A stretch of DNA of 42,806 bases from Candidatus Binatia bacterium (GTDB taxonomy: Bacteria > Desulfobacterota > Binatia > UBA12015). Position numbers and translations under genes: made by a program. Position 1 is the first letter of the stretch. The number at the start of each line of letters is the position of its first letter. Below the pieces are notes generated by a model that saw only the letters and a list, made by a program, of their open reading frames with translations, was not told where the DNA came from and ran no database searches. Positions 34,689 through 41,809 of the stretch are shown piece by piece. The stretch spans positions 1 through 42,806 of the forward strand of contig JAIEPK010000305.1 of assembly GCA_019749875.1 (NCBI GenBank). Reading direction: 5' to 3'.

Positions 34689-35048
34689 ATTGCCTGGAGG
34701 GGGACTCTGTCCCCCTCCCTCCACCGCGGCGAAGCCGCGGTGGATTCCCTCCCCCGGCTCGGCTTCGCCTCGGCCACTCGCCTCCGGCTTCGCGGGTGGG
34801 CCGGTGTCACTCCGTTCCTTCCCTCTTCTGCCGCGATGCCGCGGTGGAGGCCCTCCCCCCGGCTCGGCTTCGCCTCGGCCACTCGCCTTCGGCTTCGCGG
34901 GTGGGCCGGTGTCACTCCGTTCCTTCCCTCTTCTGCCGCGATGCCGCGGTGGAGGCCCTCCCCTGGCTCGGCTTCGCCTCGGCCGCGCGCCTTCGCACGC
35001 GGCCCCGTGCTGCCGGGCCCGGCTTCGCGTGGAGACGTTATGCCGGGC
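34689..35048. repeat. gene-free 360 bp with 104/105-bp tandem repeat and palindromes
   Basis: No gene is supported here. A unit beginning GGCTCGGCTTCGCC starts at 34756, 34861 and 34965 (periods 105 and 104). The array runs from about 34731 to 34984: two near-identical copies, a short piece before the first and about 20 bases of a third. Variation is a few substitutions and one indel. Each copy carries a CCGCG/CGCGG palindrome. Flanking palindromes are 34696-34704 with 34710-34718, 34721-34730 with 34734-34743 (loop GAA), and GCCGGGCCCGGC after the array. Frames stay open through it on both strands, but the translations look random. Confidence 0.85.
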
Positions 35049-39918: not shown

Positions 39919-41226
39919 CTATTCCTTCTCGGGGGCCGCCGCGCGCGCGTCCACCTCTCTCACATCGGCACCAGCGACGAGCTGCTCAAGCGTCTGCCCC
40001 CGCGTCATCTCGGCGCGCAGCGCGTCACGTGCATGATCGTGCGCGTAGTGCTCGCGAAGTCGCTCGGCATGGCGTCCCCCCGACGCGACGATCTGGCCGA
40101 TCTGCTCCGCCAGCTGCTCGTCGGTTACACGAACGTCGAGCTGACGGGCGATCGCGTCAAGCAGGAGGTCGCGGCGCACCTCACGCTCCGCGCGCGGACG
40201 CAGCTTGTCGCGCGCTTCGGTCTCGTGCTCGGGCCCGTTGAGCTGCAGGCCGCGGCCGGCGAGCTCCATGAGAAACTCACGCAGCAGGCCGTCGATGCGC
40301 CGGCTGACGAACGTTTCCGGCAGATCGATCGGATTCCGCTTCACGAGCTCGTCGATCAGGCTCTCGCGGGCGACCAGATCCGCGCGACGGTTGCCCTCCC
40401 GCTCGAGCTGCTCATGGATGCGGGTGCGCAGCTCGGCGAGCGTCTCGCAGTCGCCGTGGTCCTTCGCGAACTCGTCGTCGAGCACGGGCAGCCGGCGCTC
40501 TTGGATGGCGCTGACGGTGACCGTGTACTTGACCTGCTTGCCCTCGAGCTCGGGCGGTGCTCCGTCGGGCGGCGGGCCTTCGACCGTGAACGTCTCGCCG
40601 ACGCGCGCCAGCGCCAGGCGCTCGTCGATCACGGCAGGCAGCTGGCCACCTGCGACCTCCACCGTCGCCGACTCGACCTGCAGCCCCTCGACCGGCGCGC
40701 CGTCGCTCTCCGCCGCGATGGCGATGGTCGCGAAGTCGCCGCGAGCGAGCTCGCTGCGGCCCTCCACGGGCACCAGCTCGCCATGACGCAGGCGCAGCTG
40801 CTCGAGGACCTTGTCGACGTCCTCGTCGGTGATCGCGACACGCGGACGGGTGACGGTGAACCCGGTGGTGTCGACGTCCGACATCGGCGGCAGGATGTCG
40901 ACGGTCGCAGAGAACTGCAGCGCCGCCTTCGGATCGAAGTCGCCCAGCTCCAGCTCGGGCTGCGACACCATCTCGATCTTCGATTCCTCGATCGCCGACG
41001 AGAATCCTTCGCGCACCAGGCTCGACAGCACCTCGTTGCGGATCTCCTCGCCGAACTGCCGCTCGATCACGCCGCGCGGGGCCTTGCCGGGACGGAAGCC
41101 CCGAATCGTGGCGCGGCGCGCGACGTCGCGGAATGCGCGCTCGAACTCGCTCGAGACGCGCTCGGCCGGAATCTCGATCGCGAGCTTCCGGCGGGTAGTG
41201 CTGACCTCTTCGACCTCGAACTTCAT
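39919..41226 (-). CDS. tig: trigger factor
   Basis: Ribosome-bound chaperone with peptidyl-prolyl isomerase activity that receives nascent chains at L23. The 435-aa product has the ribosome-binding signature GFRPGKAP at residues 43-50, a central FKBP-like domain (about 150-240, with [12 protein letters not shown]) and a helical C-terminal substrate-binding domain ending in an alanine-rich acidic tail. The central domain looks divergent, as is common. It heads tig-clpP-clpX-lon and is preceded by a 54-bp tandem repeat array where its promoter should lie. Confidence 0.95.
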
Positions 41227-41617
41227 CTACGCTCCGCCGGCGTGCGCCGGGCCAACGTCGCGACGGCCTCCATGGCGGCGTCGCGAGGATCGGGTCTGGG
41301 TAACGGACCCCTCCGACGCCCACAACTGCGAGCGCCAGCGAGCAGTCAAGTGGTTGCCGGCGAACGCCGGCAACCCGCACTGCGAGCGCCAGCGACCACT
41401 CGCGTGCTCGCCGGCGAACGCCGGCAACCCGCACTGCGAGCGCCAGCGACCACTCGCGTGCTCGCCGGCGAACGCCGGCAACCCGCACTGCGAGCGCCGG
41501 CAACCCGCACTGCGACCACCAGCGACCACTCGCGTGCTCGCCGGCGAACGCCGGCAACCCGCACTGCGACCACCTGCGACCACCCGCGTCTTCGCCGCGA
41601 ACGCCGCCGACCCAAAC
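41227..41617. repeat. gene-free 391 bp with 54-bp tandem repeat array
   Basis: No gene is supported here. From about 41317 to 41617 a 54-bp unit recurs, beginning CAACCCGCACTGCGA and ending CGCCGGCGAACGCCGG-like. Clear unit starts are 41371, 41425, 41479 and 41555, with degenerate copies at about 41317 and 41608. A short copy of 22 bp starts at 41501, which looks like an internal deletion of 32 bp. Each full unit carries the palindrome CCGGCG-aa-CGCCGG. Copies differ by few bases and there are no unique spacers, so this is a minisatellite, not a CRISPR array. It lies between tRNA-Leu and tig; 41227-41316 shows nothing recognisable. Confidence 0.9.
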
Positions 41618-41697
41618 TGCGAGAGGGGGGACTCGAACCCCCACGGTTACCCGCTAGATCCTAAGTCTAGTGCGTCTGCCAGTTCCGCCACTCTCGC
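41618..41697 (-). tRNA. tRNA-Leu (anticodon TAG)
   Basis: Class II cloverleaf, 80 bases: acceptor GCGAGAG/CTCTCGC, anticodon stem CTAGA/TCTAG with loop CTTAGGA, short variable arm, T arm GGGGG-TTCGAGT-CCCCC, discriminator A. No encoded CCA. Its 3' end borders the 54-bp tandem repeat array directly. Confidence 0.96.
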
Positions 41698-41718
41698 GTG
41701 GGACCGTCTACGGCGCCC

Positions 41719-41737
41719 GCGACGGTAGCACCGTCGC
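41719..41737. other. perfect inverted repeat between tRNA-Leu and the UspA gene
   Basis: GCGACGGT (41719-41726) and ACCGTCGC (41730-41737) form a perfect 8-bp inverted repeat with a three-base spacer. It lies in the 112-bp divergent region, 22 bp from the tRNA-Leu 5' end. It could be an operator or simply another GC palindrome. No clear promoter boxes were found in this gap. Confidence 0.35.
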
Positions 41738-41809
41738 AATGGGCTTGCACTCGATCGGCCGCCGGCCGGCGCGCTTCTCCCGATCGGATCCGGGCGCTAG
41801 AAGCGTGCG

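Follow-up and report, generated by a model that had tools for sequence, protein, structure and literature searches.

A 54-bp tandem repeat that begins inside a tRNA-Leu gene and ends at the probable promoter of tig in a Binatia bacterium

The window, by which I mean the whole 42,806-nucleotide stretch of DNA analysed, contains a tandem array of 54-bp units whose period begins inside the gene for tRNA-Leu(UAG) and which ends immediately upstream of a conserved promoter-like block in front of tig. A sister species carries an array of the same period and phase at the same place. The explanation that I favour, though I would give it only about an even chance of being right, is that this is a tRNA-tail minisatellite that grew by tandem duplication between two octamers, is transcribed as a tRNA trailer, and carries hairpins that would at most damp read-through into tig. 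The features of the locus are as follows:

39919-41226, minus strand: tig (trigger factor), 435 aa, ATG at 41226; Pfam PF05697 and PF05698
41297-41325, minus strand: probable tig promoter, TTGTGG (41325-41320), 17-bp spacer, TACCCA (41302-41297)
41325-41332, minus strand: terminal octamer CTCGCAGT, which closes the array
41333-41386, minus strand: unit 6, 54 bp, with a 10-bp hairpin GGTTGCCGGC/GCCGGCAACC (fold z -3.2)
41387-41440, minus strand: unit 5, 54 bp, same sequence as unit 4
41441-41494, minus strand: unit 4, 54 bp
41495-41516, minus strand: unit 3, shortened to 22 bp
41517-41570, minus strand: unit 2, 54 bp
41571-41623, minus strand: unit 1, 53 bp, degenerate; starts with the last 6 bases of the tRNA gene
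41618-41697, minus strand: tRNA-Leu(UAG) gene, CCA not encoded (ARAGORN; Rfam RF00005, 57.2 bits)
41722-41750, minus strand: probable tRNA-Leu promoter, GTGCAA-N17-TACCGT

TRF placed the 54-bp array at 41325-41622, with a best score of 306, whereas 500 dinucleotide-preserving shuffles of 41317-41700 reached no more than 68; the repeat array reported between tRNA-Leu and tig in the initial annotation is thus real. The limits given there, 41317-41617, need correcting, because the array overlaps the end of the tRNA gene and stops at 41325, and a start at 41317 takes in about 8 promoter-like bases. Cutting the minus strand at [CG]TCGCAGT, over a span from 41623 down to 41333, gives the order tRNA-Leu(UAG), units of 53, 54, 22, 54, 54 and 54 bp, closing octamer, tig. 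The exact number of copies in the window is uncertain and may be wrong because the genome is a 680-contig draft. Unit 2 is identical to units 4 and 5 except at 2 of 54 positions, the copies at the two edges (units 1 and 6) have diverged, and units 2 and 3 begin with GTCGCAGT rather than CTCGCAGT. The CCGGCG..CGCCGG palindrome, which had been described as perfect in each unit, is so in four of the six; one base of it is missing from the tRNA-proximal unit, and the 22-bp unit breaks off within it. This short copy does look like an internal deletion, in keeping with the slippage or recombination that had been proposed for it. Reading the terminal flank as one more degenerate copy is unconvincing (it agrees with unit 6 in 26 of 54 columns, 7 of these within the octamer). 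A coding role was also considered, since the unit length of 54 is divisible by 3 and the array is spanned by long open frames, but the frame is interrupted by the units of 53 and 22 bp; a 118-aa frame had no Pfam match.

The octamer ACTGCGAG lies at 41616-41623, as previously noted, and six of its eight bases fall inside the tRNA gene, whose end is 41618; the repeat period begins with CTCGCA of the tRNA followed by two flanking bases. Between the copy at the tRNA end and an inner copy, 8 nt are identical in the window (9 nt in the sister species), the match ending at the next tRNA base, and an 8-nt match in register would arise by chance about once in 65,000 (4^-8, a hand calculation). In both congeners the period extends into the 3' end of the tRNA, which supports the earlier suggestion that the array grew out of the flank of that gene. 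The array belongs with tRNA-tail tandem repeats of the tyrT type, in which the period starts inside the tRNA and each copy holds its 3' end, the shared piece here being 8-9 nt with 6 in the gene. Of 45 distinct tRNA genes in the window's own genome (G000), surveyed up to 400 bases on each side except for two genes with just 138 and 173 bases downstream, only tRNA-Leu(TAG) has its own 3' end repeated behind it. The same gene is the only one of 42 in the sister species (G001) with periodic repeats of its own end; single 8-mer recurrences at tRNA-Arg and tRNA-His were taken as chance. The GTGCAA-N17-TACCGT arrangement upstream of tRNA-Leu was found, besides the window, only in G001 and G002 (3 of 12 family genomes examined).

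Unrelated arrays lie near other tRNA genes. A 105 bp x 2.6 array is found at 34729-34995, upstream of a tRNA-Val/tRNA-Asp pair and adjoining a gene that by eye is HU-like; in place of this array G001 has a short 7-bp one near tRNA-Val and tRNA-Asp. Two more are present in G001, one of 113 bp x 2.1 following tRNA-Ser(CGA) and the other of 14 bp x 8.4 within an Arg/His/Pro tRNA cluster (loci L204 and L174).

A genome-wide search for the 54-bp unit, as the initial annotation had proposed, found it only at this locus in its own genome. When a less strict 21-nt pattern was used, allowing up to two mismatches, 13 matches appeared in G000, 6 in the array and 7 outside, compared with 5 for a reversed control. 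The unit was found in none of the plasmids and none of the viral contigs searched, and a 19-nt hairpin pattern matched 71 stretches in contigs of other genomes, from unrelated taxa and with one match each, which I take as chance. A literature search, limited in its collection and terms and reaching its sources only in part, yielded no report of a tRNA-tail minisatellite behind tRNA-Leu next to tig.

The history of the array was traced through the family, 14 genomes in all (an order-level search gave the same 14), of which G001 was the single congener compared. In G001 the array (TRF, 54 bp x 3.1) is found at the same position, beginning within the tRNA and stopping just short of the promoter-like block, and consists of three diverged 54-bp units in the same phase, so that the two species have six and three units, respectively, plus the end octamer. 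Units of the two species are identical at 35-44 of 53-54 positions, unit 6 being the one in the window most similar to those of G001. At least two units were probably already present in the common ancestor of the two, since the first, tRNA-proximal units of both share TGGGTCGGCGGC whereas GCGGGTYGCCGGC is common to the remaining full-length units. Between tRNA-Leu and tig, the 12 other family genomes are all free of an array; the array thus arose in this genus.

The gene order itself is far more widespread. Of the 14 family genomes, 12 have a tRNA-Leu(TAG) upstream of tig according to ARAGORN, the two exceptions being G012, which keeps just the 3' part of the tRNA gene, and G008 (locus L085), in which the gene is filled by a run of N, possibly a scaffold gap hiding an insertion. 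The truncation in G012 could reflect an insertion at the tRNA or a misassembly; a DDE transposase gene is found on the same contig (locus L167, G012:C170:1-4400). Beyond the family, a tig match was found in 133 of 145 class genomes, and 17 further class loci were examined (30 listed minus 13 from the family); in nine of these tRNA-Leu(TAG) precedes tig, in no case with an array in between. Judging from this distribution, the placing of tRNA-Leu(UAG) immediately before tig is old. The two genes are close neighbours in many class genomes, often with little room for a tig promoter, and their adjacency in these nine loci, together with a distance of only 24 bp in G008 and G009, suggests co-transcription of tRNA and tig where they are so closely set.

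In this family, a promoter-like block usually separates the two genes, and the genus of the window adds a hairpin-rich array before it. Twelve of the 14 family genomes, 10 of them lacking the array, have the form TTGnnn-N17-TA once and once only in the interval from the tRNA end to the tig ATG; spacers of 16, 17 and 18 were permitted in the search and 17 was found in all twelve. In shuffles of the last 120 bases the block arises at a per-genome frequency of 0 to 0.115, and none of the 12 genomes has it on the antisense strand; these statistics overstate the case somewhat because related genomes are not independent. It is absent from G008 and G009, and its N17 form was also absent from the nine class loci with the tRNA, most of which have short spacers. 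In both array-bearing genomes the block lies downstream of the array, and in the window directly so. A generic sigma-70 consensus scan did not list it because its -10 box is far from TATAAT. On the strength of its conservation, 41325-41297 is probably the tig promoter. The initial annotation had placed the array where the tig promoter should be, which must be corrected: a promoter inside the array is unsupported because the conserved block sits whole and downstream of it. Thus, a change in copy number would shift the distance from tRNA-Leu to the tig promoter and not the probable core promoter. Between the block and tig, the leader (41227-41250) holds, by eye, a small hairpin, CCGGCGCACGCCGG, just before a Shine-Dalgarno-like GGAG, and CGGCGCACGCCG is retained in G001.

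Unit 6 of the window and unit 1 of G001 form 10-bp hairpins more stable than those of shuffled sequences (z -3.2 and -4.3), whereas the stability of the two inner units folded, unit 5 of G000 and unit 2 of G001, is unremarkable (z about -1.2 to -1.3). Two pairs of the hairpin changed on both sides, but 144 of 500 shuffles reach the same, so this covariation is not evidence for RNA structure. The fold of the whole trailer has a z of -5.8 in G000, a value inflated by the repeats, and of -1.05 in G001. An array-free relative, G004, also has a strong hairpin between tRNA and tig (z -3.7); in four others without the array (G003, G005, G006 and G007) the trailer folds no better than its shuffles. 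No intrinsic terminator, that is, a GC-rich hairpin with a T tract, was found in the trailer, which has no run of four T. G002 and genus g6 have just 13-26 nt between tRNA and promoter block and no hairpin, so insulation is not generally needed.

The favoured origin and effect may be put together as follows. In the ancestor of the genus, about 46 bp with a GC-rich hairpin would have ended up between two CTCGCAGT octamers, the first formed by the 3' end of tRNA-Leu(UAG), the second directly adjoining the tig -35 box. A 54-bp unit would then have been multiplied head to tail as these octamers slipped or exchanged unequally, and one copy would later have been trimmed to 22 bp. I infer that the array is transcribed as the tRNA 3' trailer, ending just before tig's own promoter, and that its likeliest effect, if any, would be for stacked hairpins to damp read-through from the tRNA promoter so that tig uses its own. 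The start of the period in the tRNA gene of both congeners argues for this account, as do the same period, phase and place despite diverged sequence. Damping would be the likeliest function, with neutrality nearly as likely; covariation is not above shuffles and there is no U-tract terminator, so any function is at most a candidate and neutrality stays a close rival.

A neutral minisatellite of the same duplication origin, persisting in unconstrained space with no effect on tRNA or tig expression, is accordingly a serious though lesser possibility. It would account for the absence of the array from the rest of the family and for covariation at the level of shuffles, and the further, unrelated arrays in the neighbourhood of tRNA genes (of 105 bp by tRNA-Val in G000, and of 14, 32 and 113 bp in G001) indicate that the genus is generally rich in intergenic arrays. 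However, no other array is found at one and the same tRNA gene in the two species, and this one has retained its period and hairpin though the sequence diverged. Tuning of tig-clpP-clpX by copy number through a changed tig promoter, the effect first proposed for this array (clpP and then clpX, with Pfam PF00574 and zf-C4_ClpX, follow tig), seems improbable: the array does touch the -35 box of the probable promoter, but the block is intact outside it and is found in 10 array-free family genomes.

Quite improbable too is an rtT-like role, in which units cut from the tRNA trailer act as separate RNAs. The architecture equals that of E. coli tyrV-rttR as re-measured here, and rtT is described, in the part of the source consulted, as released from tRNA operon transcripts (PMC4986893), but RtT has no match in this genome while the E. 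coli control is positive, and the unit sequence diverges fast between congeners. I hold it highly improbable that the units, each an acceptor end plus hairpin, are decoys that compete for the enzymes of tRNA 3' maturation, with the processing state setting how much transcription or intact RNA reaches tig; if that were true, the supply of tRNA-Leu would be coupled to chaperone and Clp expression through unit number. A mobile-element trace, whether attachment-site copies from integration at the tRNA 3' end or a REP/MITE family, is scarcely tenable and mostly refuted already. The reduced tRNA-Leu of G012, with its transposase gene nearby, and the resemblance of the hairpin to a palindromic unit would suit it, but the shared piece is just 8-9 nt without the T arm, no element lies between the copies as an attachment site would demand, and the unit is neither dispersed (7 outside matches compared with 5 in the reversed control) nor present in viral contigs or plasmids.

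How, then, does the tRNA-tail minisatellite compare with known systems? The closest likeness is to the E. coli tyrT/tyrV repeats (rttR / rtT RNA, RF00391; tpr). Behind tyrV of E. coli K-12 (NC_000913.3), the array is 178 bp x 3.1, with its start within the tRNA gene, whose final 19 nt recur at +159, +337 and +515. In both systems the array lies directly behind a tRNA with its period starting inside it, every copy holds the tRNA 3' end, and the array closes on a partial tRNA end. They differ in period (54 bp here, 178 bp there), in the tRNA (Leu here, Tyr there) and in the length shared with it (6 nt, or 8 with the flank, compared with 19). Furthermore, the Rfam RtT covariance model (RF00391) found no match in this genome at E <= 0.001, and none in the window, while the E. 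coli control was positive; sequence homology to RtT was not found and the array is not assigned to that family.

As far as the sources consulted in part describe it, rtT is linked to the stringent response (PMC4986893), and rtT-resembling elements belong to BIMEs, which can terminate or attenuate transcription (PMC2965389). The array resembles REP/BIME in having GC-rich palindromes in intergenic space, but its copies are direct and in tandem, not in alternating orientations, and the unit, present at this locus only, lacks the many dispersed copies of that class. In the layout of its genes, with a tRNA immediately upstream of a translation-related protein gene (compare the 24 bp of G008 and G009), the locus is like the tRNA-mRNA dicistrons exemplified by E. 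coli tyrU-tufB; in this genus, however, the array pushes the pair apart and a promoter-like block lies between. Bacterial minisatellites or VNTRs have head-to-tail units, a trimmed copy and near-identical inner copies, all of which are seen here, but the phase of this array is fixed on the tRNA 3' end and is common to two species. Two congeners with array-free relatives at one locus show how such arrays arise, and they provide a test in nature of whether repeats in a tRNA trailer insulate the gene that follows; the placement of the tig promoter is corrected as well. The array is apparently an independent case of the odd E. coli tyrT layout, in an unrelated lineage and at a different tRNA.
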